64,000 nt of DNA from Sialis fuliginosa (taxonomy: Eukaryota; Arthropoda; Insecta; Megaloptera; Sialidae). Location: the NCBI GenBank assembly GCA_961205875.1, contig OY540810.1, forward strand, positions 1,984,001-2,048,000, written 5' to 3'. The position numbers and the translations under genes were made by a program. Below the pieces are notes generated by a model. That model saw nothing but the letters and a program-made list of their open reading frames with translations. It made no database searches and was not told where the DNA came from. Shown in pieces: positions 31,656 through 64,000 of the stretch; position 1 is the stretch's first letter; every line of letters starts with the position of its first letter.

Positions 31656-34296
31656 TCACGTAACTTTGTCGTCGTGTTTGAGACGATGCAACGCAAGGTT
31701 CCTCTGCATTGCGAATGCCTTCCCGCAGACCGTGCACTGGTACGGCCTTTCATTGCTGTGTATTCGTAGATGATACTTGAGATGTCCTGCCTGGTTGAAT
31801 CGTTTGTCACACACAGCGCAAACGTGAGGTTTACTACCTGTAGAACATTGATAGAGTCGATTACATGGCGAAAAATAAATCTATTTTTACCGACTTCAAT
31901 TTTTTTATGTATTTTCGGGCATAACTCTGATGAATATGCACTGATTTGGACGATTTTTTGTTTGTTTGAAAGAGAATTCTCCCGAGGTGGTATCATATAA
32001 ATTTTATCAGAATCTGACCATGGACTTAAAAAAGGAGGGGTTTTTTAATTCCGCTGTTTATATTTTTTATTCTAATCCCATTGAACAATGAGAAATTTTT
32101 ATTTAAAACTAGCTGTTACCCGCGAATTTCGTTCGTGTGGAATTTAGGTTAGGTAAAACTGTCACTCATCAAGAAAAAGAAGTAGAAGTTAGGTAATACA
32201 GATTTCTATTATAATAGTCGATAAAACAGGTCACACGTACAAATATCACACATATTTTTTTATCTAATAAATTTTTCGGAATAAAAAGTAGCCTATGTTC
32301 TTCCTCAGAATGCAAGCTATCCTCCTGCCAAATTTCATCACAATCGGTTCAGCAGTTTAACCATAAAAATGTGACAAACAGACAGACAGAAATTTATAAT
32401 ATTAGTACGAATATATCTTTGTACAAGCAGGGGGGGGTTAATAATTTTAGTGCCCTTAATCGTATAATTAATTATTTAGTTGATTTTTGTAAATTTAATC
32501 CCCCAATAAATGCAGTTTGTACAAAACGTTGCTGCCTTTAATTTTAATAGACAAATGATACAATACCTGTATGAACGTAGCTATGAGTCTGGAGTCCTAG
32601 TTTTCGTTTAAACGATTTAGAGCACACATTACAGCTGTATTTCTTCTCGTCTGTATGGATCAGGGAATGTGTTTTAAGGGCCCCTTGCTGAGTGAAAGAC
32701 TTGTTACAAACTTCACACCTGAATTATTATTTTATACATTAATTATTAACACTAATAAATAAACTGTTATAAATCGATTTAATTGTATAAGTTTGAAGTT
32801 TATATTTGGCTACATTTTTTATGGTTTCTTCAGGTATTTCTAGAATTGCCAATTTTTCCGAAACTAAATTCTACGAGATGTTGTCATATACACTAGTGTA
32901 GCCCTGAAGGGGAAGGCAAAAGAAAAGAATAAGACATATATGTTATGATTGTTATAATATTGTTATCTTACTTCTGTCAACAATCCGAATTTACAGTTAA
33001 ACATTTGTAGAATCTATTTATTATTTACTGCTTCATATTTGCCACTGTCCAAATACGTACCTATAAGGTCTAATGCCTGAATGAACTCTACCATGTATCA
33101 CAAGGAACGCCTTTGTACTGAAAGTTTTGCCACACTCGCTACACAGGAACTCTTTGACTGCCTGACTTGCCTTTCTGCTGCTTTTAACACCTCCATCATC
33201 GTCATTTTGGTCGTGTCTCTTCCTGTGCATTCTCAACTGTCCGAGCTGTTTGAAGCTCTTACCTAAAGTGACCACCAGATTTTAAATTTGCAATAGGTTA
33301 CGCTATAAACTTTTTAAATTAATTATATATATTTTTGTAATAATTTACAATCACTGTTTACTAATTGATGTTAAATATTGCTACTGCATGCTGGTATTAT
33401 TGAAAACAATTGGCTTTAGACCCTCACCACAGACGTCGCAAGAGAACATCGCGACGTCAGCGTGCGTGCGAAGGTGCTCTGTCAGTGTAGGAGCCTGGAT
33501 GAAGCCACGGCCACACACAGGGCACACATGGGGCCTCTGCCCCGTGTGGATCATCGTATGACGACGTAGGTTACCTCGACTGGAAGGAAGAACATTTAGT
33601 TTTGATTAAACTAAGTTACAGAATAAACTTACCTGAGAAATCTCAAATCACAAAGTTCACATTTAAATGGTTTTTCTCTTGTATGAGACCTTATGTGTGT
33701 CTCAAGTTTAGATCCGCTAACAAAACTCTTAGGGCACAAACTACACGAGTATTTCAAGTTTTTATGCAGTTGTTTATAATGCTTAGACAACTCGCTAGAT
33801 GTTAAAAATTGTTCATCACACTTTCGACACTTAAACAACGAACTATCACGTTTTTTTTCACTTTTCTCCACTTTACTTTCAACATCTGTATCCGTTTTAT
33901 CGTCGTAATCATGAAATCCGTCAAATAAAGTTTCTTCTTTAATAGGATACACGTTTTTATTTTCATAAACCGAATGTAGAAACTTATCGGAGTTTTCACA
34001 TCTTTTCTTGAAGTTGTAAGCTTCGTTCATCGATTTTATGCATTCGGTGCATATCAACGATGGTAATCCATCGTTATTTGATATCTATTTGACGAAAATA
34101 AAAGAGAAATCAGTACGTTTTGATTAAATTTAAAAAATATTGCATTTACCTGTACAGAAGAGCATGCCATTAACATATCGGCAATAGAAATGTTGAAATT
34201 ATTTGAGTACGGTTCGAATATAGACTTTAAATCTCCTTCAGATAAACATGTTCTACATACTGTTTTATAGTATAACTTGTTTTGATCGTTATCCAT
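31656..34296 (-). CDS. ZAD-C2H2 zinc-finger protein 1
   Basis: Six exons on the minus strand: 34,150-34,296; 33,633-34,084; 33,428-33,579; 33,061-33,262; 32,567-32,718; 31,656-31,837; 428 residues. The ZAD zinc-binding dimerisation domain has Cys14, Cys17, Cys61 and Cys64, the pairs being split by the phase-0 intron 1 after Val-Gln. An acidic linker follows (residues 95-130), then ten C2H2 fingers from about residue 134 to the end. Fingers 5 and 6 are separated by a 20-residue spacer rich in Asp and Ser. Several introns cut fingers between the Cys pair and the helix. Likely a nuclear DNA-binding regulator; targets unknown. A family A element sits in intron 5. The start codon is 345 bp from that of ZAD-ZNF 2, head to head. 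Confidence 0.9.
32107..32413 (+). repeat. Family A element in ZAD-ZNF 1 intron 5
   Basis: Starts CTAGCTGTTACCCGCG and ends in the GACAGACAGAC tail with TTTATAATATTAGTACG. It lies antisense to the host gene and is nearly complete. Confidence 0.8.
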
Positions 34297-34640
34297 TTTT
34301 TAAATGCGTAAATAATAACTGTTATTACTAGAAGACATTATTTGACAAGACAATATGACAACAAATAAACATAGATGAAAGGCATTGGCCTTATTTATGC
34401 CTGTAACGAAACGGAGAACGAAGTTCTACTGTAACATTTATCAGGAAGGTATAATTCGGTATATTTTGTGACATCTATTGAAAATCAACCCGTTAATTAA
34501 AACAATATGTATTTTATCATAAAATTATCACCATTTAATTAAAATAAAAAGTAATCATAATGCATCAAAAAAATTCATGTAAATACGATTCAGTTCCCAT
34601 TCCTTATATTATTATTGACCTTAGTTTTTTTATTTAAAAA
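34297..34640. promoter_or_regulatory. Divergent intergenic region, ZAD-ZNF 1 / ZAD-ZNF 2
   Basis: A 344-bp gap between two divergent start codons of related genes, so it holds both promoters. AT-rich; no motif assignable by eye. Confidence 0.5.
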
Positions 34641-36786
34641 ATGGAAAATAACATCACCATTAATACAGAAATATCTTCTTTAGATATTGATAAAGCGTGC
34701 AGGTGTTGTTTAAATAATAGTGGAACGTTGAGAAGCATATTTATCACAAAGAAATTCACGGACACAGAAATACGGTTGATTGACATGTTAATGGAGTGTG
34801 CCAATGTACAGGTAAATTGTAAATAAAGTTAAATTTATGTAAAAGAGTAACTTTATATATGGTATGGTTTTAGATTTCAGAAAACGAATCTCTACCTTTA
34901 AAACTGTGCGAAACATGTACAGAAAAATTACAAAATTCATATACATTTAAAAAGAAATGCGAAGCTACAGATACAATTTTACGTAACTATTATGATAAAA
35001 TTAAAGAAGAAGAAGTAGATTCAGACAGTGATTATGAACCGAAGCCTCTAGATGTTTTAATAAGTGAAGAGAAAATCAGTACAAGGAGAAAATATGTCCG
35101 GCGAAAAAAAATACAATCGAAAGAAACTGTTAAACCTTTGAAAAGAAGAAAAAGAAGTAATAAAACAGCACAGATAAAAACAGAAAATGTAGATTTATCA
35201 ATAAAAAATGAAGATGATAAAAATAACCTCAAAACAGAAAATTGTGAAAACAATGAAATTAAAACTGAAACAGATACAGACGCAATAAAAACAGAAGAGC
35301 CAGACAAGAAACCACTGTCAGATGTTGAGAAAGCTTCACGTAACAGAAACCGTAGCCGTATGAAAAACGGTATACATCGCACGATTCTGTCATGTCCCCA
35401 TTGCGACTATAAGAGCCCCAGGTCCAGTTTGAACATTCATATGCGAGTACACACAAAAGAACAGCCCTACTCATGTGAATTCTGTGGCAGGAGATTCAGT
35501 TTTAATGGTGAGTTGAAAAAAAGTTAGATTCACAGGTTTTGTATTGTCAAGCTTCTTAAAATAAAATAAAATATGTTTTTTGTCTAGGTAACCTTCAGAG
35601 GCACCTGAAGATACACACGGGTGATAGGCCTCATAAATGTACAGAGTGTGACAAAGCGTTCATACAGCACGCATCTTTGCTGGACCATGCGCGAGTCCAT
35701 AGCGGTGAGAAGATTTATAAATGCGACCTATGTGATAGGAGCTTCACTCAAGCGGGCCAGCTCAGAAAACATGTCCGCTTACACGTTGATCCGAGGTAGG
35801 ACACTATTTGAAATTTGAATATATATTGAATAACGCTTCTATCGGTTTGGAAAAATATATAAAACATACTTCTTAATAAATATTTATTTGGTCTTTTCGT
35901 GGATATTATAATTGACAGTCTTGTTCAAAAAATATTTTAGCTAGTCTTGTATGAAAGGAGTAGAATATATTATTTTTAAGGTTATTAAAAACAGATATAT
36001 TCTAAAATATTAACCAAAATCTTTTAAAAGTCTTGTAATTTTTCCCCTGGATATTTGTAGCCACTTTAAAAAAGTAAAAAGCATATGCGCGTCATTCAGT
36101 TACAGAAAGACGCACGCCGCCACAACCGCCAATAAACCATCGTCAAATGCATGTCACACATGCCCCATCTGCCACAAATCGTTCAACACGCGCAGCATCC
36201 TCAAGGTGCACTCTCTGATCCACGGACCGAAGGACTTCCTGTGCTCAGATTGCGGCCGCGGGTTCGTGTCCAAGGCCGGGCTTGCGTCGCACTACCGCAC
36301 TCACTCAGGCGCACGTCCGTACGCGTGTGAAACTTGCGGCAAGGCGTTCTCGCAAACCGGCTCGCTCAAAGCACACTTGCTCATACACACGGGCGTCAAG
36401 CCGTACGTCTGCAGTGTGTGCGGGAAGGCGTTCACGCAGAGGAACCACCTCAGGTACGTGGAAATAAACATACATATTTACAGCGGCACACTCCGTTGAA
36501 ACATCGTTTTACATGTACGGAAGCACGCTCCATTAAAACATCGCTTTGCGTGTACAGCAGCGTAAACCATACATTTTTTTTTTTTTTCGAAAGGTACCAT
36601 CTTCGTATACACACGGGAGAAAGGCCGTATGTGTGCAATATCTGCAACAAGAGCTTCACAGTCAATGGCACGCTGACAGTTCACATGCGCCTCCATACGG
36701 GTGAAACCCCGTTCATTTGCGACCATTGCGGTAAGGGGTTCTACGATTCGAGCAGTCTCAAGAAGCATACAAAAAGCCACACATGA
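34641..36786 (+). CDS. ZAD-C2H2 zinc-finger protein 2
   Basis: Five exons: 34,641-34,811; 34,874-35,507; 35,588-35,795; 36,106-36,453; 36,594-36,786; 517 residues. ZAD Cys are at 20, 23, 69 and 72, with the same phase-0 intron after Val-Gln as the other four family members. The long linker is basic then acidic and carries repeated Ile/Leu-Lys-Thr-Glu words that fit the SUMO acceptor consensus. Ten C2H2 fingers follow, with TGERP/TGEKP-like linkers, ending in CGKGFYDSSSLKKH, closely like the end of ZAD-ZNF 5. Exon 4 is GC-rich in third positions, unlike exons 1-3. Probable nuclear transcription regulator. The 3' end is 640 bp before CSN2. Confidence 0.9.
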
Positions 36787-37426
36787 ACATAATTGTAAAT
36801 AGATTGAAAATGTACGTTGTGTGTTTTTATATGTATTTATTATAGTATAGTCGAATAAGTTATGGTTATTTTAGAATACGATAGTTGTGTTTTATTTATA
36901 GAGTGCGCTAGAGTCACTCACTTTACCCTTAACTACACCAGTGGTTGAATACAATTCTTTTCCGCATTTTCCGAATTCTTTCATAAAACAATTATAAAAT
37001 TAATTGTAATTTATTTTAGGTAGTTAAAATATTTTTTTTAAATGAAGAACGTCAGCATAGGCAATCAGCTAGACATACGTGTTATTACATTGTATATACA
37101 CGTGGTAGGTAAGTAGGTACCTGTAACTTCCTGATTATGTACTATGAATTATCTCCAAGAGATTTCCATAAGTACTCTCGAGGAAAAATGGCGTCTACAT
37201 TATCTGTCATATTTAAATTTGTCAATAAGACTACAACTTATTTTTAAATATATCACAAATTTTATGTCGAAACTGCACACAAACGCGCATCTATATTGAG
37301 TATAATACACACGAGATACTTTCTTATCGTGCGAGAACTCAAAATAACTTAAAAGAAATCAAAGTACGTACTTATTGCTTATAACCTATAAACTACTTTC
37401 CGATCTGAAAAATTATATACAAAATC
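36787..37426. other. Intergenic region ZAD-ZNF 2 to CSN2
   Basis: AT-rich, no gene. It must contain the 3' end of ZAD-ZNF 2 and the promoter and leader of CSN2. No repeat family recognised. Confidence 0.45.
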
Positions 37427-38761
37427 ATGTCGGATAATGATGAAGATTTCATGTGCGACGAAGAAGAAGATTACGGACTTGAATATTCTGAAGACAGTAA
37501 TTCAGAACCGGACGTTGATCTTGAAAATCAATACTATAATAGCAAAGCCCTCAAAGAAGATGATCCTAAAGCTGCGTTAATTTCTTTCCAAAAAGTTCTC
37601 GATCTCGAAGGCGGAGAAAAAGGTGAATGGGGCTTCAAGGCTCTCAAACAGATGATCAAAATCAACTTCAAACTCTCCAACTACAACGAAATGATGTCCC
37701 GTTACAAACAGCTTTTAACCTATATCAAAAGTGCAGTTACAAGAAATCATAGTGAAAAAAGCATAAACTCAATCCTTGATTACATTTCTACATCAAAAAA
37801 CATGGAATTGCTGCAGGATTTCTACGAGACAACTCTTGATGCATTAAAAGATGCTAAAAATGATCGCCTTTGGTTCAAAACAAACACAAAACTCGGGAAG
37901 TTATATTTTGATCGTGCTGATTACAATAAGCTTGCGAAAATATTAAAACAGTTGCATCAATCGTGTCAGACAGATGAAGGTGAAGACGATCTTAAAAAAG
38001 GGACCCAACTCTTGGAAATTTACGCACTTGAAATACAAATGTACACAGCCCAAAAGAACAACAAGAAACTGAAGACTTTATATGAACAATCACTCCATAT
38101 AAAATCTGCAATACCCCATCCGCTGATTATGGGGGTTATCAGAGAATGCGGAGGAAAGATGCATCTTCGAGAAGGAGAATTTGAAAAAGCTCATACAGAT
38201 TTCTTCGAAGCTTTCAAAAACTATGACGAATCTGGAAGTCCAAGGCGTACGACTTGTCTCAAGTACCTCGTACTTGCAAATATGCTAATGAAGTCAGGGA
38301 TCAACCCTTTCGATAGTCAGGAAGCAAAACCTTACAAAAATGATCCAGAAATTCTCGCAATGACAAATTTAGTCATGTCGTATCAAAATAACGATATTGG
38401 CGAGTTTGAAAAGATCCTCAAGCAAAATAGAAAGAATATAATGGATGATCCGTTCATCAGAGAGCACATAGAAGACCTCTTGCGTAACATTAGGACGCAA
38501 GTTTTGATAAAATTAATCAAACCGTATACCCGTATTCATATCCCGTTCATTTCTAAGGAGTTAAATATTGATGCAGGAGAAGTAGAGGGATTGCTTGTAT
38601 CATGTATCTTAGATAACACTATCAGAGGACGAATCGATCAGGTAAATCAGCTGTTGGAGTTAGATAGGAAATCTACGTGCGCTGCGAGATACGTGGCGCT
38701 CGATAAGTGGACGAACCAGCTCAGTTCGTTGCATTTGGCTGTAACTAATAAGATGGCTTGA
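37427..38761 (+). CDS. CSN2: COP9 signalosome subunit 2 (Alien)
   Basis: A single uninterrupted exon of 444 residues, one longer than human CSN2 and colinear with it. The COP9 signalosome removes NEDD8 from cullins and so controls SCF-type ubiquitin ligases in nucleus and cytoplasm; CSN2 docks the cullin-RBX1 substrate (established). The acidic N-terminus holds [20 protein letters not shown]. The helical repeat region has [19 protein letters not shown] and [20 protein letters not shown]. The PCI domain occupies about residues 255-415, with [20 protein letters not shown] and [24 protein letters not shown] lies 22 bp after the stop. The lack of introns could mean an old retrocopy or simply intron loss. 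No A-tail or flanking duplication is visible. Confidence 0.96.
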
Positions 38762-38782
38762 AGTTTTATATCTAATTATTAA

Positions 38783-38788
38783 AATAAA
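38783..38788 (+). terminator. Polyadenylation signal of CSN2
   Basis: AATAAA 22 bp after the stop, followed by a T-rich downstream element. Confidence 0.7.
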
Positions 38789-38867
38789 GTGTTTTTTTCT
38801 GATTAAATTTGTTTTTATTTTCGTTGTTTTAAATGTAGGATTTTCAAAAAAGGTATTCTACAAATCT

Positions 38868-38929
38868 TGCCACATTGCAGTGAACATTTTCGGGCCCCGA
38901 TGTCCACTGCAAAAGCCAAGATCCATACA
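38868..38929. mobile_element. Family E fold-back element, degenerate copy
   Basis: Between the converging CSN2 and eIF3g genes. It holds CCACATTGCAGTGAACATTT and ends in AAAGCCAAGATCCAT, matching family E. Part of the outer inverted repeat is lost. Confidence 0.55.
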
Positions 38930-39123
38930 AAGATATTCTTCATTTTTTAAATCTCTTAAGTTTTGTATTCAATCAGTTATTGTAATATTTTTACCTACTT
39001 TTATACCAATTTATAATAATACAACAAACCTAAAACAGCCTGGAATACAAAATAAATAAATAAAAACAAGCACGTATCTAAATTACTTTATTCATCGCGA
39101 AAACGTACAAAATATATAACAAA

Positions 39124-40094
39124 TCATTGATTAGAATGACTCGGAGGCTTTGACCAATCGACTCCCAGAATCAAATGATCATATCCATGTCCGTTCAGCG
39201 TCTGTATAGCATTCGCTGCATCCTGCCTAAACTTGAAGTGAACATAAGCGAATCCTTTACATTTATTAGTGGCCTTATCTTTTGCTAAGAACAGTTTGTG
39301 CACCGGCCCGAACTGTTTAACTAAATCTTCAAGATCTCCTTCAGTTGTTGAGTCACTCAGGTTGGAAATACGTATTGCAGTTGCATCGTCTCTCCTTGGC
39401 ATGTTTGGATTATCTCCACGTTTCACTGCGCCTTCTCTCAAGGAAGGTGCAATATACTTATTTGTGCTCTGTTTCACCTGCTCTTGCACACCTAAGAAAC
39501 AAATAAAAATGTTTAAACACTTACCGTTAAGTGTATGTATTTATAACTAACCTGGGAAAGTGACTTTTTTCTCTTCTTGCAACTTAGCTGGCAACCCGGT
39601 ATCTTTCCATGGACACTTTGTGGTCCAATGGTCTCCACTACAGATACGGCACTTGACTACACCTTTATCTCCGAGACCTGCAAATAAAACAAACCCAATT
39701 ACGTTACTTCAAAATGCACATGCACATTAGTTAACATACCTTTAAGTTTATCGATAGCACTCTCTTCTTCGACTTTATTGTCCTCTTCTTTATTCGTAAT
39801 AAACTGCATGTAAACATCTTCAGCTACAACTGTTGTGGAAGGATTAGGACCAGGTTTATCATCGGATGATTCGCCAAACTTGGGCCAGGTTTTTCTTACA
39901 GCAATGCTTTTCGATACGATACGCTTTTCTATTTTATAAGTGCGCACAATCTTCACCTTATGGTTATTGTCGACTTTATACTCTGTGCAAATCTTGTAGC
40001 CATTTTCATATACTTCTGTTGCAGGAGGCAAAGTTCCACCCTCTAGCTCGACCTCATCTGCCCAACTGGTCTTAACGTCGTCTGCTACAGGCAT
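39124..40094 (-). CDS. EIF3G: Translation initiation factor eIF3 subunit G
   Basis: Three exons: 39,740-40,094; 39,552-39,677; 39,124-39,491; 282 residues. eIF3g binds mRNA and 40S near the entry channel during scanning in the cytoplasm (established). The N-terminal half has [30 protein letters not shown] and [15 protein letters not shown] zinc-knuckle-like [13 protein letters not shown] follows in exon 2. The C-terminal RRM (about residues 200-280) carries RNP2 IRISNL and RNP1 KGFAYVHF and ends [11 protein letters not shown]. Junctions are all G|GT across codons and in phase. The upstream leader may contain a further intron, since donor-like sequence lies just 5' of the ATG. Divergent from ZAD-ZNF 3, with 447 bp between the starts. 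Confidence 0.95.
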
Positions 40095-40541
40095 TTTCTA
40101 AAGAAATCTGTAACAAAAAACATGTTAATGTACAACAATAAAAAAAAACGATTATTAGAAAAGTTAAGAATGCACATACCTTTATTTGTTTGTAATGAAT
40201 ATATTCTTAAAGATGGAATCTGTAGAAATATATATGAATCGCTTAATTCATAAAAATAATAAATATTTTAACAATTTGTCAAATTACAAAATGTCGAAAT
40301 AGCACATGTCAAATACATAGATAAAAGAAACGCGAGGAAAATAATGTCAGTAATGCCAATATCAAGTAAATTTAAATTTATTTATATTTTTTTGAATACG
40401 AAAAATTCACAGAAAAATTCATCCCAGGAAGAATTATTAATAACAAATAAAATTAATTTAATAGTAAATTACATAACTAAACAATATGCATTTATAAAAT
40501 AAAAGTCAAAACAACAAAACATATTTTGCTTACTTATAAAA
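40095..40541. promoter_or_regulatory. Divergent intergenic region, eIF3g / ZAD-ZNF 3
   Basis: The 447-bp gap holds the eIF3g leader and the start of a duplicated block (from about 40,325). The part just before the ZAD-ZNF 3 ATG, including AATATGCATTTATAAAAT, is conserved before ZAD-ZNF 4 and may carry the shared promoter. Confidence 0.5.
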
Positions 40542-42147
40542 ATGTCGAATTGCGGAGTGACGTCTTTATATATTAAAACGGAACAATTAGACAAAATCGA
40601 CTATAATAATGTATGTCGTTCTTGCCTTACAAACACCAATTTGGAACCTTTATTCGAAAACGTATCTCATTTACAACAATTTCCACTACAAACAATTATA
40701 ATGGAGTGTGCTTCCGTACAGGTAAATTAATTATTACCAAATTTCGCTTAAATATTAATAAATAAATTTATTTCAGTTGGCTGAAAACGACGATTTGCCT
40801 CAAAAGATATGTACTCAGTGCATTAACCTGTTCAATCAATACTATGCCTTCAAAAAACAGTGCGAGAATAATGATAAATTACTACATGCACATAAAGAAA
40901 ATATTAAAGATGAAGATACAGACTGTTCAAACATTGAAACCAACTTTTATGACGAAGAAATATGTGATACAAGAAGTATACAGTGTGAGAATAATGATAA
41001 AGTACTACGACCACATAAAAATAATATTAAAGATGAAGATACAAACTATTCAAACATCAAAACTAATATGTACGACGAAGAAATATGTGATAGAAGTATA
41101 GAAGAATATAAAACAAATGGAAAATTTAAATGTGACAAATGTAGCATAATGTTTCCATCTCGTCTTGAATGTGATTTGCACATCAAGCAAACTAATCACA
41201 GAAAGTATATACGTTTGAGATGTCAACTGTGCGACAAATACATCCTATCAAGACACATGAGTACACATAGGCGGACACATATGACTGATAAACAAAAAAG
41301 AAAATATCCGTGCACTTTATGCAATGCAAAATTCACCATGAAAGGTAACTTACAGAGACATGTATTGCAGCATACAGGTGAAAGAAAGTACAAATGCTCT
41401 AAATGTGATAAGGCTTTTACACAAAAGACAACTTTAAATGATCATCTAATAGTTCATTCAGATTCTAAACCTTTTATCTGCTACTGTGGCCAAACTTATA
41501 AGCGACGTATATCGCTTAAAAATCATTTAAAACTGCATACAGGTTATAAAGCAGAGAATACGGATATAAAAAAACAGGGACAACACAAAAAACCAATAGA
41601 ATCCGATTCAAAATATTCGTGTGGTGTTTGTTTTAAAGAATTTAGAAATAAGTACGTTTTCAAGACCCATACACAAACACATGTAAAACAATATTTATGC
41701 AGTGATTGCGGAAAGTGTTTCTCAACTAAATGCATCCTCGATAAGCATTTATTAGTACACACAGGTTTAAAATCGTTTAAGTGTGATTTTTGTGATAAAA
41801 CTTTTGCGTATCAAGGATCTCTGAAGAATCACTTATACACGCACTCCGGAGAACGTAATTACAAGTGTGAAGTCTGCAGTAAGACGTTTATTCAGAGCAG
41901 TCACCTTAACACGCATAAAAAACTGCATGTAGGGTTGAAACCACATATTTGTTCGATTTGTAGTAAGGAGTTTGCCCTGAAAGGGAATTTGACAGCGCAC
42001 ATAAGAATACATGCTGGAGAGAAAAGTGTTGTTTGTGAAGTTTGTGATAAACGCTTCTACGATGCAACCAATCTAAGAAAACACCAAAAAAGAGTTCACA
42101 CGATGATAGCAAATGCAACGAGACCATCTTGTGAAATATTTGAATAA
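40542..42147 (+). CDS. ZAD-C2H2 zinc-finger protein 3 (tandem duplicate a)
   Basis: Two exons: 40,542-40,721 and 40,777-42,147; 516 residues. ZAD Cys are at 25, 28, 72 and 75, with the family's phase-0 intron between the pairs. The linker is a 41-residue block present twice in tandem (DNA 40,858-40,980 and 40,981-41,100), with words QCENNDK, IKDEDT and DEEICD. Eleven C2H2-type fingers follow in one exon. Finger 5 has only one residue between its Cys (FICYCGQTY), so it may bind zinc poorly. The last finger is VCEVCDKRFYDATNLRKH. N-terminal IKTE fits a SUMO acceptor. AATAAA overlaps the stop codon. Likely nuclear; targets unknown. Confidence 0.9.
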
Positions 42148-42152
42148 ATAAA
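42143..42152 (+). terminator. Polyadenylation signals overlapping the ZAD-ZNF 3 stop
   Basis: Two overlapping AATAAA words share bases with the TAA stop codon. The duplicate gene has the same arrangement at 44,725-44,730, so the arrangement predates the duplication. Confidence 0.55.
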
Positions 42153-42423
42153 ATCAAGTCATTTTTTATTAAACTTTTTATTTTTTACACTATATCTACA
42201 TCAAAAAAAATTCTTATCTTTTATACTAGGTGGATAAAAGAAAAAACTTTTCCTGCTTGGAGTCAAATTTGTGACAGGAAAACAGAGACCATATTGATAC
42301 TCATCAACATTAAGGTGTTCCTGATTTTCAGGAAGTTTTAGAAATGTTTTGTTTTTTCCAATTTTTTAGTAAAATAAGTCCACTTGCTCTTTGTACCTAC
42401 TAAATGATTCTTCAAAATGAATT

Positions 42424-42961
42424 GATACCATTTAGAACCATTCATCTGTGATAGGGGGCGAGTTGTGAATTTATTAATTTAATACAAGGGACTCAAATAT
42501 CACTCAATACGGATCTGTACAATTTTTTTAATTGATTAAATTACAAACAAGGTTTCTATATAAGTATGTAGTGTATGTGGATTTGCTATTTTAACAATAC
42601 GGGCCTAAAACATTACTTAATACGTGTCTGAACTTTTTTTTAAATGTTACTACGTTAAAGTACAGGTAGGTAAAAGTTTAATTTAATTTTTTTTGTTTTA
42701 ATTAAATCTGAAATTAACAATTGATTAATTGCAAGATTTTTCAGTCAACAATTAATCAATTGTTAATTGTGATAACTCGCAATTACAAGTAACTGTATTA
42801 TTAATCGTTAGTTAAAAATAAGAAATGCAATTTATTTGTTAATTTTTATTTGCTTTTACGATTGAATTTTGCCCAACTGTTGTAGTCGATTATGCATATC
42901 TGTGCATGTTACTACTGTTTGAGAGCCACATGAGTATTGTCAACTAAACGATGCGCGCGCA
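42424..42961. other. Spacer between the two tandem ZAD-ZNF units
   Basis: AT-rich, with no recognisable gene or repeat family. A local inverted word (TTAACAATTGATTAAT and its complement) lies near 42,715-42,770. Confidence 0.45.
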
Positions 42962-44944
42962 AAAGATGAAACGCGAAGAAAATAATGTCAGTAATGCCAA
43001 TATCAAGTAAAATGACATTTATTTATATATTTATTTTTGAATACGAAGAATTCATCCCAGAAAGATTAATTAATAATAAATAGATTTAATTTAATAGTAA
43101 ATTACATAACTAAACAATATGCATTTATAAAATGAAAGTCAAAGCAACAAAACATATTTTGCTTACAAAAATGTCGAATTTCCGAGTGTCGTCTTTAAAT
43201 ATTAAAACGGAACAATTAGACAAAATTGATTATAATAATGTATGTCGTTCTTGCCTTACAAATACAAATTTGGAACCTTTATTCGAAAACGTATCACATT
43301 TACAACAATTTTCACTACAAACAATTATAATGGAGTGTGTTTCTGTTCAGGTAAATTAATTATACATTGTCACCAAATTTCGTTTAAATATTAACAAATA
43401 AATTTATTTCAGTTGGCTGAAAACGACGATCTGCCTCAAAAGATATGTACTCAGTGCATTAACCTGTTCAATCAATACTATGCCTTCAAAAAACAGTGTG
43501 AGAATAATGATAAATTACTACGTGCACATAAAGAGAATATTAAAGATGAAGATACAAACTGTTCAAACATCAAAACTAACATTTATGACGAAGAAATATG
43601 TGATACAAGAAGTATACAGTGTGAGAATAATGATAAATTACTACTGGCGCATAAAGATAAAATTAAAGATGAAGATACAAACAGTTCAAATATCGAAACC
43701 AAAATTTACAATGAAGAAATATGTGATACAAGTATAGAAGAGTACAAAACAAATGGAAAATTTAAATGTAACAAATGTAGCATAATGTTTCCATCTCGTC
43801 TTGAATGTGATTTGCACATCAAGCAAACTAATCACAGAAAGTATATACGTTTGAGATGTCATTTGTGCGACAAATACATCGTATCAGGAAACATGAGTAC
43901 ACATAGGCGGACACATATGACTGATAAACAAAAAAGAAAATATCAATGCACATTATGCAATGCAAAATTCACCATGAAAGGTAACTTACAGAGGCATGTA
44001 TTACAGCATACAGGTGAAAGAAAGTACAAATGCTCTAAATGTGATAAGGCTTTTACACAAAAGACAACTTTAAACGATCATCTAATAGCTCATTCAGATT
44101 CTAGACCTTTTATCTGCTACTGTGGCCAAACTTATAAGCGACGTATATCACTTAAAAATCATTTAAAACTGCATACGGGTTATAAAACAGAGAATACGGA
44201 TATAAAAAAGGTGTGTGATGTTTGTTTTAAAGAATTTACAAATGAGTATGTTTTCAAGAAACATACAAAAACGCATGTCAAACCATATTTATGCAGTGAT
44301 TGTGGGAAGTCTTTTTCAAGGAAATGCTACCTCGATACGCATTTATTAGTACACACAGGTTTAAAATCGTTTAAGTGTGATTTTTGTGATAAAACTTTCG
44401 CGTATCAAGGATCTCTGAAGAATCACTTATACACGCACTCCGGAGAACGTAATTATAAGTGTGAAGAATGCAATAAGACGTTTATTCAGAGTAGTCACCT
44501 TACCACGCATAAAAAACTACATGTAGGGTTGAAACCATATATTTGTTCGATTTGTAGTAAGGAGTTTGCCCAGAAAGGAAATTTGACAGCACATATGAGA
44601 ATACATGCTGGGGAGAAAAATGTTGTTTGTGAAGTTTGTGATAAACGCTTCTACGATACAACCAATCTAAGAAAACATCAAAAAAGAGTTCACACAAAGA
44701 TAGTAAATGCAACAATATCATCTGAATAAATAAAATCAACTTTTTTTTATTAAAATTTTTATTTTTTATACTATCCACATAAAAATAATTCTTATCTTCT
44801 TACTAGGTGGATAAAAGAAAAAAAATTCTCCTGTTTGGGGAATCGAAAAAACAGAGACCATACTCTACAACGTTAAGGTTTTCCTGATTTTCAAGAAGTT
44901 TTAGAAATGTTTGTACGTACTAAATGATTCTTCGAAATGAATTG
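42962..44944 (+). repeat. Tandem gene duplication, unit 2
   Basis: Second copy of 40,325-42,423, same orientation, about 2.6 kb downstream start to start. Exons are highly similar; the flanks carry indels. Confidence 0.85.
43171..44729 (+). CDS. ZAD-C2H2 zinc-finger protein 4 (tandem duplicate b)
   Basis: Two exons: 43,171-43,350 and 43,413-44,729; 498 residues. The start was chosen to match ZAD-ZNF 3; an in-frame ATG 39 bp upstream (43,132) would add 13 residues. The layout equals duplicate a: ZAD, doubled 41-residue linker (43,494 and 43,617), eleven fingers. It has lost about 14 residues before finger 6, where the spacer is reduced to IKKVCD, and has a C-terminus four residues shorter. 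Differences occur inside finger helices as well (for example finger 2 SGNMSTH against SRHMSTH), so binding preference may have drifted. Both copies are intact. Confidence 0.9.
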
Positions 44945-45408
44945 TAATTTTAATACATAAAACTAGACTATTGAGTTTTGGAGTTCTATGTTGTCAAACA
45001 GGTGATTTTTTTTCTATATCCACCAAAATAATACTTTAGATTAAGTACAAAATACATATATACAATTTTAGTAGTAGATTAACCACACACAGATCTGTAT
45101 TACTCCTTATCTCATTGAAAGCCACTTAAGTACTGTTTAATTTAAAGTTAAACTCATTTTTTTAATATCCGTTTGGCTCATCTACGTATACAATAATAAT
45201 ACTTATCCTTTGGTAATTTAAAAGTTGATAATACTGATATTTATTACCAAAGATCGACATTTATATACAGAGTATTTCAACTTTGAAGTACTAGTACCAA
45301 GTACTCAGTGAAAATACTTGAAGTATTCAGTATTATACTCTTCCAAATACATAAATATAGCGCTCACAACAAGGTTTGTAATATGAATGGAGTGCGCCGC
45401 TGTACATC
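44945..45408. other. Convergent intergenic region, ZAD-ZNF 4 / ZAD-ZNF 5
   Basis: AT-rich, with no gene. A local repeat of CTTGAAGTATTCAGTATTA-type words occurs near 45,280-45,340. Confidence 0.4.
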
Positions 45409-47152
45409 TCACTTGTCCGCATGAGCTTTGCAGTGTTTCCTGAGACTGCTCGAGTCGTAGAACCCCTTACCACACACGGCACATATGAACGGTGTCTCGC
45501 CGGTATGCGTGCGCGTGTGCACGGTCAGGTTACCGCGCTGCGAGAACCGCTTGCCGCAGATGTCGCACGCGTACGGCTTGATGCCCGAGTGCACGAGCAG
45601 GTGGGCGCGCATGTGGGTGCTTTGCGTGAACATCTTCGCGCACAGCGGGCACGAGTGCGGCCGCTCGCCCGTGTGACGCAGCGCGTGCACCTTCAGCGAG
45701 CTGCTGTAAGTGAAGCGCTTGCCGCACAACTCACATGCATGGCGCTTCTCTCCTGTGTGGATCAACCTGCACAAATAATGTCGCAAAATTGAACATGATT
45801 TCTTGCTTGGAATTTCAAATTAAATAGAAATTTACATGATAGTAAGTAGGAGCTGACAGACATGACAGAAGAGGGTTAGGTAATACAGATTTCTGTTATG
45901 ATAGTCAATAAAACAGGTTGTGCATATAAATGTCATAAAAAAAGTAACCTATGTCCTTCCTCAGGATGCAAGCTATTTCCCTGACAAATTTCATCAAGAA
46001 AAGGTAACAGACACACTTTCGCATTTATAATATTAGTATGAATAACTAACCTGTGACTATTGAAGCCAACTTTTGTCGCAAAATCTTTCCCACACTCGGC
46101 GCACAGGTACCTCTTCTCCCCGTGCCTTTTGCGGTGTGCATCCACGCCCGCCTTGGTCGCAAACCTTTTACCACATGTCCCACACGCATGCTCCTCGCCG
46201 TCGACACGAGACTCTGCGGTCGGTCTCCTGCGGCGCGCTACTGTACCACCGCCACTGTTGCTGTCTGTGTGTCTGTTGGCCACGTGTGTCTGCCACTGTT
46301 TGGACTGCTTGAACGCCTTGCCGCAGTGTTCACACACGTACGGTGCTTCGCCTGTGTGCACGCGCATGTGTATCTCCAGAGTCACCGCCTGGATGAAGCT
46401 TTTACCACATATCGTGCACTGGTGCGGACGTTCGCCTGTAAATTACAATTTTTGGATACATAAAATTCCTTCTTTATTACATTTATACATACCTGTATGT
46501 GTCATAATGTGTCTCTTTAAATTCCCACCCATGCTGAATCGTTTCTTACAAAAATTACACTCATATGGCCTTTCTTTTGTGTGTATCCTCATATGTGAGT
46601 CTATGTGTCGAAAACTCAACATTTTACTGCAAATCTTACACGGAATCTTTTTATATGGATGATTCTTCATTTTCATGTGTTCACTTAATTCAACCTTATT
46701 TTCAAACACCAAATCACACTTTTTACACTTAAATTCGCTAATAACATTCCTCTGCTGTCTCGGTTTCGCTTTTTTTGGTTTATTTATACTTTTTATTGGT
46801 TCTGATTTAATTAAAACCATTTCAAACTGTTCCTCTTCATCTTTTTGGTAAGACCGCAATAGTTGATCTACTTCTTCGCACTTTTTCTTGAACACAAATG
46901 CCGCGTTTATCTTTTCCATGCATTCTGAACATATATTCAACGGCAAGCCGTCGTCTTGTAATATCTGAAACAAACGATAGCAGTTACGAGAGTTAAAAAT
47001 TGATATTGAGTTATATTTACCTGTAGAGAAGTGCATGCCATTATCATTTCATCGACACGGCCGGTTGATACTTCGCTGAATATCGATTTCAAATCTACCT
47101 CAGACATACAGGTGCGGCATATTCGATCGAAATCGTATTTTAAACAAGTCAT
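45409..47152 (-). CDS. ZAD-C2H2 zinc-finger protein 5
   Basis: Four exons: 47,021-47,152; 46,493-46,964; 46,051-46,435; 45,409-45,766; 448 residues. I chose the ATG at 47,152 because it puts the first ZAD Cys pair (Cys12, Cys15) at the usual distance; an in-frame ATG at 47,206 would add 18 residues. The second pair is Cys56 and Cys59, with the shared phase-0 intron between. Eleven C2H2 fingers follow. Between fingers 5 and 6 is a Gly/Arg-rich spacer (SGGGTVARRRR). LIKSEP fits a SUMO acceptor. Exons 3 and 4 are strongly GC-rich, unlike exons 1 and 2. The last finger CGKGFYDSSSLRKH is nearly that of ZAD-ZNF 2. Intron 3 carries a family A fragment. Confidence 0.9.
45868..46048 (+). repeat. Family A fragment in ZAD-ZNF 5 intron 3
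   Basis: Has ACAGATTTCTGTTATGATAG, the GCAAGCTATTTCCCTG word and the 3' end TTTATAATATTAGTATGAAT. It lies antisense to the host gene; the 5' end is missing. Confidence 0.75.
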
Positions 47153-59968: not shown

Positions 59969-62302
59969 TAAATTAATATTTAATTAAAAAGATAAACGGT
60001 ACTTACATATATATCATTTAAAACAGTTTTCACATTTTATCAATATTTAAAACACAAACATAAATATTATAAGTTTTGTTTATTTGTTGCAAACAGAACA
60101 CGTTTAATAAGATTAGGTTTATTAATAGCTAAATATATTTTACCCCAAGTATATGAATGTGTAAATAAATAAATTATAAAAACATCCTGTTGTGGTTTTT
60201 AATCCGGTGAATACATATAATATATCTAACTTCCCAACTGATTAAATTTAATAAATAAATGTAAGTATTGTTCGGTTTCGTGAGGGGGGCAGGGGGGGGG
60301 GGAGGTAATTATACTACTATACTATGTATATATTTATTATAAGTAAACACTTCCATAATTAAAGCAATATAATTAATTCTTTTATCTATATATGTATATA
60401 AAGCTTAACGTGTCTGTCTGTCTATCTGTTATCACTCGAGAACCACTTATCCGATTTACGTGTTTTTTTTTTAATTCATAGGTACGTTCTCTGGCCAGGT
60501 TATAGGCTATATTTTGTTACGTTAGGTAACATAACAACTAAGTAGTGACGATAATAGTAAATCAAGTCGGATAAATTTTGCCGTCGGCGTGCTATTTTGC
60601 AATACGCTGCCTAAACCATTCAATATTGAACAAAATAATGTATTAAAGAATTGTGTAGAATCAAAAGATCTACAATCAAGTCCGCGACACCATATATCTA
60701 ACTTTTGTTTAAGTCACAATGACTGCTTTTATGAAAATTTAAAATATTTGGGTTCTGTTTATGTGGACTTATGACCTGCAAAACATTAATCCTTATCGAA
60801 ATAAATGATTTCATCGTCATAAGTACTTAATGTAGATGTAATTGGCCCTTTACAGCATCCAATTTGGTCGTATAGTTTAGAAAATATCTTGAAATATATA
60901 TAGGGGAACATTTTATTTACGCGACCCGTGTTATAAAAAAATTATAACTCGGTTAAAATTAATCTTAGAAAGAACAAAAAATAATCAAAATATTGAAAAT
61001 TTTATCAGCTTTAACTTTTATTTCAAACATTTTTCAATAAAATTCTCCATTTTAAAGTTATTCGCGAAAAAACAGTAAACAAGTTTGAAATTTTCGTCGC
61101 ACTCTTTACTGGCCTGTAATTTTTAATACCCTTCTCCCCCATTTTGAGGGCCAAGGCTGAGATTATATAAAAACTATCAATTTGTTGGTCTTTCGTTTTT
61201 TTTTCTTCAAGAATTAATAATTATTATAAAGTTAACCTTGAATAAGTACATTTTGTCGTCATCTATTAGTTAATAGATAAACTAACTTTGTCTTCCTTCT
61301 TTGTATTTGAAATGGTTTTTAACTTTGCTAGTTAATAACAAAGATTACGCCTTCGGTGGTGAAAATCGAAACTAACACAATCGGGTCGACTGTTATCTAA
61401 ACTGATCTAACCTAATTTAACCGATGTTTAGTTTTTAATTCAAACAACAATTGACAGTTGACCCGATTGGAATAGTTCCTTCTTTCACCACACCGTGGCT
61501 TACGATCAAAGACATAACAAAGTTAATTTAATTAAATGATTATTATAATGTCATAACTTTAATTAGTAATATAATATACTAATAAATCTGTAATATATTC
61601 GGTATTGGTAAGTAAAAACAGATTTCATTTTTCGTGGGTGGGTTATAAAGTTAGGTTAGGTTAATTCTGCCTCTGGCAATAATTATGTCAGTTATTTTTA
61701 AAAACAACTAGGATTTTTAATCAGCGGTAGGGAAGGCGGAAGGGGATTTTTTTAAATAGGGATAATATATTGATAATAAAAATTATAATATTTTTTATTG
61801 AAAACATTTATAATACATTATAAAAATTAGTGGTTTACAAATAGAACCCCTCTATTAAAACAATAAAATACTATATTTAAAATAATACAGTATTTTGTGT
61901 CAATACATAAAACATAACAATTGGCTCAGCCATTTGTGGTATTTAAAAACTTTGGTAAAATTATAATTTTTTAAATTATAAAATGACAAATATTTTTTTA
62001 ACTTCTATTCTAATTTTTAACAGCACATGATTATCACTTTATAAAGGCTGCTTGCAATTAGCTGCGTGTTTGGATTCCAACTTACATTTCACATGAAAAA
62101 TAAATATTACGATTTTGAAAACTGTTACAGTTTTCAAAATCACTAGAATGTCTTTGATAATAAACATATCAAGCAACGTATTTTATATAAATGGCAAAAT
62201 AGCGTGTCTTTGCACTTATTACGTAATAAAATATACTCCATTATAGAAAATACTTAAAAAATTACATTGAATGAAATATATACAACTGCGGGCCCAATAT
62301 GT
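59969..62302. other. Gene-free stretch between carboxypeptidase and SARM1 homologue
   Basis: AT-rich. A G-run cluster lies at about 60,283-60,306. A TCTGTCTGTCTATCTG tract lies near 60,412. An imperfect fold-back lies at about 61,330-61,530, with GGGTCGACTGTT and AACAATTGACAGTTGACCC in opposite arms. One 61-codon ORF (60,589-60,774) shows no domain. Confidence 0.45.
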
Positions 62303-62909
62303 CTATTTGCGTATCAACGACCACACTTTATTAACACACTTGTCCACTAAACTACGTTTACGTTTTGGAGAATCTGTCACAGGTAATGAAAGTAACGAAG
62401 CTTGTTTATTATTAGAACTTTGCAAACACTGATCTGGTTCGTTTAATTTATGTTCGTAGCTATGCGCTTTGACGAGTTGATCTTTGTGTTTAGGTTGATT
62501 TTGTTCTGATTCCGACGCTTTTCTCGAGTCCCCGTCAAACCCGGAATCATTTCCATCATCTTCGGGAACGGCTAATTTATCACAATCAAGAAATTCACAA
62601 CTCTGCGTTCCCGGTATCATTTTTTCTTCTTCAGTATTTAAACATGTGATATCTAAGTTACTGTCGTAACTTTTTGAAAGCCTTTTGTCAGCTTTAACCA
62701 TTGTTTCGTCTTTTGTTTGTTTCGACGGTGTTCCGTCTAGTAATCTGTCAAGACTTCGAGATCGGTTAGATGGAGGAGGAATCGGAGGTAAGCCTCTACG
62801 TGGTGCACGAGGCGTTACTCGTACACCTAAAGAGTTTGACAGATTTGGTGAGTGTCGATTCCATCCATTTGTCATTCGCATTTTATGCGGATGTTGGCTT
62901 TTATATAAA
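62303..62909 (-). CDS. SARM1/Ect4 homologue, putative downstream C-terminal exon
   Basis: An open stretch of 202 codons including the stop, behind a good acceptor (pyrimidine tract then CAG at 62,912-62,910). Phase requires two bases from the preceding exon. It can be fed in frame by the donor at 63,275 (after reading through TGA) or directly by the exon ending at 63,818. The product is basic and Ser-rich: PRAPRRGLPPIPPP, SRSLDRLLDG, then an acidic part with DDGNDSGFDGDSRKASE, ending SLVDKCVNKVW. No known domain. Likely a disordered regulatory tail of the SARM1-type protein. An internal ATG at 62,881 also opens this frame, so an independent gene is possible but less likely. Confidence 0.6.
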
Positions 62910-63002
62910 CTGCAAGAAAAAAAAATAATACGAATGATTACAATCCAAGAATTATTCTGACCAGTTCAATTCAAGTGATTAAATGAAAGAAATATGAATA
63001 AC

Positions 63003-63240
63003 TAGCTGTTTACCGCGACTACGCGGAAGTTAGGTTAGCTATAATACTAAAAAGAAGAAGGGTAGGTAATACAGATTTCTGTTATAATAGTCGATAAAAC
63101 AGGTCACACGTACAAATATCACAAAAAAAATTTTATCTAAAGAATTTTTTGGAATACAAAGTAGCCTATGTCTTTCCTTAAGATGCAAGCTATTTCCCTG
63201 CCAAATTTCATCAAGATCGGTTCAGCGGTTTAGCTGTGAA
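63003..63240 (+). repeat. Family A element in the SARM1 homologue intron
   Basis: Begins CTAGCTGTTTACCGCG and has ACAGATTTCTGTTATAATAG and ATCAAGATCGGTTCAGCGGT. It ends within 35 bp of the donor at 63,275. Antisense to the gene. Confidence 0.75.
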
Positions 63241-63275
63241 CTACAGAATATTAAAATTGGTTTTAAATATCTTAC

Positions 63276-63536
63276 CTTGATAATTTATTCCCCGAGGCTA
63301 GTGGACCATCTAGTCATTCTCGACCACCAGAATTCCCATTAACATCTTTATCGGAGCCTTTCCCACTGCTGCTATCATTGCTGTGCATTCGTTGATAATT
63401 GGGAGCTTGGCGTGTTAAACCGCAACTTGCCGGTGTTCCTGGAGTTGCATCACCTTTACCGCTAAGCGATACGCTTGTACCTCTACCTCCCATCAAACTA
63501 ACATCAGGACGCATGTTCAATTCTCCACGTAGAAAC
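63276..63536 (-). CDS. Sarm1: SARM1/Ect4 homologue, exon with TGA stop and in-frame continuation
   Basis: After the acceptor TTAG the exon completes an Arg codon and reads FLRGELNMRP, the end of the TIR domain. A Ser/Gly-rich tail follows (SLSGKGDATPG, NYQRMHSNDSSSGKGS) to TGA at 63,316-63,314. The stop is followed by CTAG. The frame then stays open for 13 codons to a consensus donor (AG|GTAAGA) at 63,276/63,275, in the phase needed by the next exon. No upstream GT in this exon has that phase. An AATAAA overlaps 63,284-63,289 on the minus strand, so a short transcript ending here is also possible. Confidence 0.8.
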
Positions 63537-63817
63537 CTAAAAATAAAAATGTTATACATGTACTCATTAAAAAGTTAGGTTAGGTATATCATTCGAATTT
63601 TAAAATAAACAATACAATACAATTTTATATTGCGTTTAAAAGGTATTTCAGTGATAAACATTAATGCAGAACATATTTGCATATTATAAATTTACAACTG
63701 ACATCTCAGGGATATATTCATGGAAATGACATTTGATACAAAATGGCCGCCATCAAGTTTTGGTAAGTTTCATATACGGACCAATTGTTATGTATTCAAT
63801 ATAGTTACAATATTTAC

Positions 63818-63984
63818 CTTTCGAGTTTGTCTACACAAGCATCTTGATAATCATGTATCCATCTGACTCCGTTAAAATGGCAAACGGCTCTCATATCTTC
63901 AGGTAAGTCTTCTGGTTCTGGCCATTGGAAATTGTCAATTATTGGAATAATATTACATTGTGACTGTAAAGCAGCGACAATTTC
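63818..63984 (-). CDS. Sarm1: SARM1/Ect4 homologue, C-terminal part of TIR domain (gene continues off window)
   Basis: This exon encodes [35 protein letters not shown] and [17 protein letters not shown], the end of the SARM1 TIR domain. In SARM1 the TIR domain is an NAD+ hydrolase that drives axon degeneration; fly Ect4/dSarm is the orthologue (established). The acceptor TTTTTTCAG is at the right edge, so the upstream SAM and ARM exons and the catalytic Glu lie outside the window. The donor at 63,817 leaves phase 2, matching both downstream exons. Confidence 0.9.
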
Positions 63985-64000
63985 CTGAAAAAACATATTA

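Follow-up and report, generated by a model that had tools for sequence, protein, structure and literature searches.

The SARM1/Ect4 gene and its exon layout

The window analysed here is a stretch of 64,000 nt from Sialis fuliginosa (contig OY540810.1), taken from a genome of 392 Mb in 20 contigs. At its high end the window includes the 3' portion of a minus-strand SARM1/Ect4 gene, which extends upstream beyond the window. The gene was modelled with eight exons (including exon C, below), GT-AG introns and a single open frame. The start codon and the 5'-most part of this model are provisional, and all total lengths rest on the assumed start.

A 744-residue piece of the product (from MSSQLM to the TGA) was aligned to residues 68–679 of human SARM1, ARM region included, with an E value of 7.9e-189, and to ARM structures named 'NAD(+) hydrolase sarm1', which we take to be those of Drosophila, with an E value of about 1e-174. 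Pfam analysis of the gene product gave SAM_2 in two stretches and TIR_2 above their cut-offs and Arm below its cut-off. Taken together, Pfam and the human SARM1 alignment recover the ARM-SAM-SAM-TIR architecture of the SARM1 NAD+ hydrolase family. The 129-residue piece encoded by exons A and B matched no Pfam family when searched alone. The Glu that forms the first residue of exon A was aligned to residue 642 of human SARM1 chains, and E642 is the catalytic Glu of human SARM1 (PMC9223315). Because the human alignment is joined by SAM and TIR domains over the Pfam cut-offs, which also bears out the SARM1/Ect4 homology proposed in the initial annotation, the gene can be firmly assigned, by sequence similarity, as the insect SARM1 (Ect4/dSarm) orthologue, a predicted ARM-SAM-SAM-TIR NAD+ hydrolase.

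Three exons on the minus strand are relevant here. Exon A (63818..63984, 167 nt) encodes the second part of the TIR domain, starting at the catalytic Glu (DWVHR|E) and running to KLE, and ends in phase 2. Exon B (63276..63536, 261 nt, symmetric 2-2) encodes the end of the TIR domain (RFLRG) and a low-complexity tail, followed by an in-frame TGA stop (63314..63316), the candidate readthrough site, with CTAG directly 3' of it (63310..63313). Beyond the stop, the exon continues (63276..63313, LDGPLASGNKLS) for 12 codons and 2 nt to its donor. Intron 2 (62910..63275, 366 nt, 31% GC) separates it from exon C (62303..62909, 607 nt), which encodes 201 residues and a TAG and makes up the bulk of the extension.

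Splice sites were scored with a generic matrix. The exon B donor (AAG|GTAAGA), 38 nt past the TGA, scored 6.7 and the exon C acceptor 7.7, each the best of its kind in the scanned region, so B–C joining is expected; the exon B acceptor was average (4.1). The B–C join is in phase and yields an extension of 214 residues (12, one from the split codon and 201). Up to the TGA there are 16 GT dinucleotides, one of which is the exon's own edge, while 12 are in phase 1 and three in phase 0; there is no phase-2 GT inside exon B before the TGA, and thus no donor there that fits the acceptor at 62909. Joining A directly to C (63818–62909) is likewise in frame and open, so that skipping of exon B keeps the frame. 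The following points had been made in the initial annotation and were confirmed from the sequence: the coordinates, the TGA-CTAG, the in-phase join and the 214-residue extension, the lack of a phase-compatible donor before the TGA (by the GT phase listing), and the symmetric 261-bp exon B whose omission is frame-neutral.

A stop codon too near the exon junction that follows it escapes junction-dependent decay, where such decay exists, and by this rule the TGA, 38 nt before the B–C junction, would be too near to trigger it. An AATAAA lies within the 12 post-TGA codons (63289–63284), close upstream of the donor. Acting as a terminal signal, it could end some transcripts in exon B and give the short form without exon C; it carries little weight because AATAAA also occurs twice in exon C (62410 and 62332). 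Intron 2 contains a fair acceptor-like site at 63046 (score 4.6) and, at about 63235–63190, a stretch around ACCGATCTTGATGAAATTTGGCAGGGA with a similar copy, by eye and inverted, in an intron farther upstream in the SARM1 gene (upstream stretch L009, about 7720–7670); this stretch looks like a dispersed repeat.

Downstream of the gene, at 61356–61491, is an inverted repeat with 38-nt arms that are 79% complementary and 60 nt apart. It coincides with weak strand-mirrored matches to the Rfam model MIR6440 and is possibly a miniature transposon remnant. Farther away, two tandem open frames (40762–42147 and 43395–44729, 461 and 444 residues) are very similar to each other and zinc-finger-like by eye; more zinc-finger-like frames lie nearby (33629–36786 and 45409–47048), and judged by eye the region around 33629–47048 holds a local zinc-finger cluster.

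Stop context and coding character of the extension

The in-frame UGA followed by CUAG gives this stop the sequence context of the UGA-CUAG readthrough class. TGACTAG accounts for 6 of the 3,097 TGA triplets in 90 kb, with all frames and both strands scanned and this site counted. In mammalian reporters UGA-CUAG promotes readthrough: of 23 human UGA_CUAG genes, four had conserved downstream coding sequence and efficient reporter readthrough, a fifth, MDH1, reached ~3.5%, and UGA-CUA alone gave 1.5% (PMC4132726). Abundant readthrough has been described in most insects tested; Tribolium and Apis did not display it, perhaps as a result of incomplete annotation (PMC5100048). From this abundance in most insects we infer that the motif would predict readthrough in insects no less well than in human genes.

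RNA folding was assessed around the stop. A stimulatory 3' hairpin was rejected as a candidate, since no stable fold was found 3' of the TGA in the spliced form (90 nt, z 0.14), in the 38 nt of exon B (z 0.91) or in the unspliced form (84 nt, z 1.35). A 110-nt spliced piece that includes upstream sequence gave a z of -1.61 (7 of 200 shuffles).

Exon C is open in its frame over its full length, which was matched by none of 20,000 mononucleotide shuffles; given the stop frequency of presumed noncoding DNA (0.072), a run of 201 open codons would arise by chance with a probability of about 3e-7. Its codon score in frame, 0.15 bits per codon, is higher than that of any of 5,000 samples of presumed noncoding DNA, which averaged -0.24 (s.d. 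0.09) and reached 0.01 at most. This score was trained on a small set (2,175 codons from eight open stretches) with an uncurated noncoding set, and it is only weakly frame-specific: exon C scored 0.113 off frame (12 stops) against 0.150 in frame, and for exon B before the TGA one off-frame reading, with 3 stops, reached 0.344, above the 0.204 of the true frame. Of the two lines of evidence, the open length weighs more. Judged by both its length without stops and its composition, exon C is very probably a coding exon.

The 12 codons after the TGA behave differently. They were open in 9,121 of 20,000 shuffles (46%), so that their openness is by itself no evidence; 15% of the noncoding samples scored as high as they did in frame, and the in-frame reading was surpassed by two others of the same stretch. 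This is the weak link in the argument, because within one genome it is this stretch that separates readthrough from exon skipping.

Exon C was also searched for relatives. A repeat origin was rejected, as a search of the whole genome at E values up to 1, in which three candidates were scored, gave one match. No match was found in the PDB up to an E value of 10, and the two Pfam matches, B3GALT2_N (15.8 of 27.5 bits) and ERO1 (12.9 of 27), were far below their cut-offs and were taken as chance. In pattern searches, IMG/VR yielded four stretches and the GTDB contigs 16, of which none was confirmed; these collections are viral or prokaryotic, and a negative result in them says little about insects.

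The 214-residue tail has an overall pI of 9.2. Its first third is basic, with 29% Pro and Ser, and contains two motifs that we take to be class-I SH3-like (RVTPRAP and RGLPPIP). The middle third is acidic (net charge -9) and the end is basic with a KRKR; several sites along the tail are presumably of the basophilic kinase type. Short motifs of such kinds are frequent by chance. The earlier description of the tail as basic and Pro/Ser-rich therefore holds in part: the pI is basic overall, but the middle is acidic, and an enrichment in Pro and Ser is clear in no part other than the first third. The tail is probably disordered.

Proposed readthrough and the alternatives

UGA-CUAG readthrough is the best single explanation of this arrangement, and we regard it as moderately probable. 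The anatomy, the sequence around the stop, the matching phases and the probable coding nature of exon C all speak for the readthrough reading of the initial annotation, as does the B–C splice sum of 14.4 (6.7 and 7.7); against it, the codons directly after the TGA have no coding signal of their own. Under readthrough, a good part of the mRNA or more would retain exon B and carry it joined to exon C. Termination at the UGA would be the usual outcome and would release a short form of 903 residues (in the model with the assumed start). In a minority of passes a near-cognate tRNA, aided by the CUAG downstream, would decode the UGA, and the ribosome would read on into the 12 codons and then exon C, which would extend the protein by a motif-rich tail of 214 residues. 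The long form would then have 1,118 residues, counting the residue inserted at the UGA, and its tail might alter the behaviour of the NADase, for instance by providing a segment for docking or targeting.

The strongest rival, which we hold to be fairly unlikely, treats exon B as a cassette. With the exon included, the protein would end at the TGA and exon C would be 3' UTR; with the exon skipped, the open A–C frame would give the long tail by ordinary translation, with no recoding needed. The initial annotation had objected that skipping removes the last TIR helix, and this is not borne out by the SARM1 alignments, whose ends are alignment ends and not helix ends. Crystallised human TIR constructs align to query residue 59, with 55 of these residues in exon A, and in them skipping would change only the last four residues, from RFLR to SLYK, which have a similar hydrophobic pattern. 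Because these alignments reach only residue 59, skipping appears more plausible than had been held, yet at some cost: longer SARM1 chains align to residues 63–65, and one weakly to 84, so that full-length chains reach 8–10 residues into exon B and skipping also loses this conserved stretch. Support for the cassette comes from Drosophila dSarm as well, some isoforms of which have C-terminal extensions without homology to mammalian SARM1; the 5-kb isoform D, HA-tagged at its C-terminus, was expressed and rescued mutant lethality (PMC9223315). An 'exon 21/22' is named at the end of the domain-coding exons (PMC9223396). Exon B itself looks constitutive, however, with its strong donor and average acceptor, and if skipping were the whole explanation, the TGA-CTAG, the donor in matching phase and the open frame over the 12 codons would be coincidental. 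Readthrough and exon skipping may also both operate at this locus.

Alternative splice sites that avoid the TGA were enumerated, and 277 open in-frame bypass joins were obtained, including exon skipping and other joins from 63818. Among the best 20 of these 277, the highest-scoring joins from inside exon B were 63454–62373 (3.0 and 2.3) and 63454–62826 (3.0 and 1.7); the latter joins a phase-1 donor to a phase-1 acceptor and would produce an intermediate tail. These values fall within the range of the modelled sites (donors 2.7–6.7, acceptors 0.4–7.7, with five of seven scored in each case), but both joins are far below the sum for 63276–62909 and cut into both exons, as judged with the same generic matrix. 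We consider such a bypass very improbable. Only marginally less credit is due to a separate origin of exon C, as part of an independent transcript or cistron that starts at an ATG of its own (the M of MRMTNGW): an in-frame ATG does lie close to the beginning of exon C, but the exon opens with the region's best acceptor, in a phase that matches the donors of both exon A and exon B. Decoding of the UGA as selenocysteine, or its editing to UGG, is hardly credible: the UGA is in frame and the 110-nt piece around it folds weakly, but selenocysteine was rejected because no SECIS was found in an Rfam scan of 61000–64000 at E values up to 5, in which the sole matches were two weak strand-mirrored ones to one miRNA model, and Lepidoptera, the order to which the initial annotation assigned this insect, are not known to have selenoproteins.

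Axon degeneration has SARM1 as its central executioner, and if leaky termination yielded a second, longer form, insects could control this enzyme at the level of translation. We tentatively propose, as a speculative extension of the readthrough reading, that regulated UGA-CUAG readthrough sets the two C-termini of insect SARM1, and that the translation state of the neuron tunes the amount of the long NADase form. That form would have docking and targeting motifs of its own, and its amount could then shift the threshold of axon death or of innate immune signalling. A long form of this kind would escape any annotation that ends at the first stop codon. Among the papers listed in a full-text literature search, none was seen to describe Ect4/dSarm readthrough; supplementary lists and the 2011 Drosophila list were outside this search and may include the gene.

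Comparison with known readthrough genes and Drosophila dSarm

The locus resembles the insect readthrough genes described previously (PMC5100048, PMC3840789) in that C follows the UGA and a second open frame, long and in phase with the first, lies beyond it. It differs from them in that those lists were defined by conservation or footprints, whereas the present case comes from genome sequence. The terms 'Ect4' and 'sarm' are absent from the main texts of both papers (their supplements being outside the scope of this comparison). With the mammalian genes OPRK1, OPRL1, MAPK10 and AQP4 it shares the same seven-base motif, and their readthrough needs no 3' RNA structure, just as no stable 3' hairpin was found here; unlike the extension here, which crosses a splice junction, those cases are conserved among vertebrates and were tested with reporters (PMC4132726).

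A further comparison is with Drosophila dSarm/Ect4, the same orthologue, in which some isoforms are extended past the TIR domain (PMC9223315). The origin of that extension is not stated in the excerpted text of PMC9223315, and it is likened to exon C by position, not by sequence. The catalytic Glu of dSarm is residue 893 in the 3-kb isoform E and residue 1290 in the 5-kb isoform D (PMC9223315). At 397 residues, this shift makes up roughly 1.2 kb of the 2-kb difference between the two, and the remaining 0.8 kb or so would be C-terminal, within a wide rounding error. In the gene described here the distance from the catalytic Glu to the TGA is 128 residues, and exon C ends at a distance of 343 positions, one of which is the TGA. 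With these distances the fly isoforms E and D would come to about 3.1 and 4.9 kb, an arithmetic on rounded labels and not a sequence comparison.

Tagged isoform D was less abundant than E (PMC9223315), and dSarm(D) did not fully rescue the axon-death defect, whereas dSarm(E) was fully functional (PMC9788811). A tail with a damping effect on the enzyme would be consistent with this behaviour, but D is also N-terminally extended, and the difference is no proof regarding the tail. By analogy, the comparison with dSarm suggests that a long SARM1 tail is an old insect feature, whether it is made by splicing or by readthrough.
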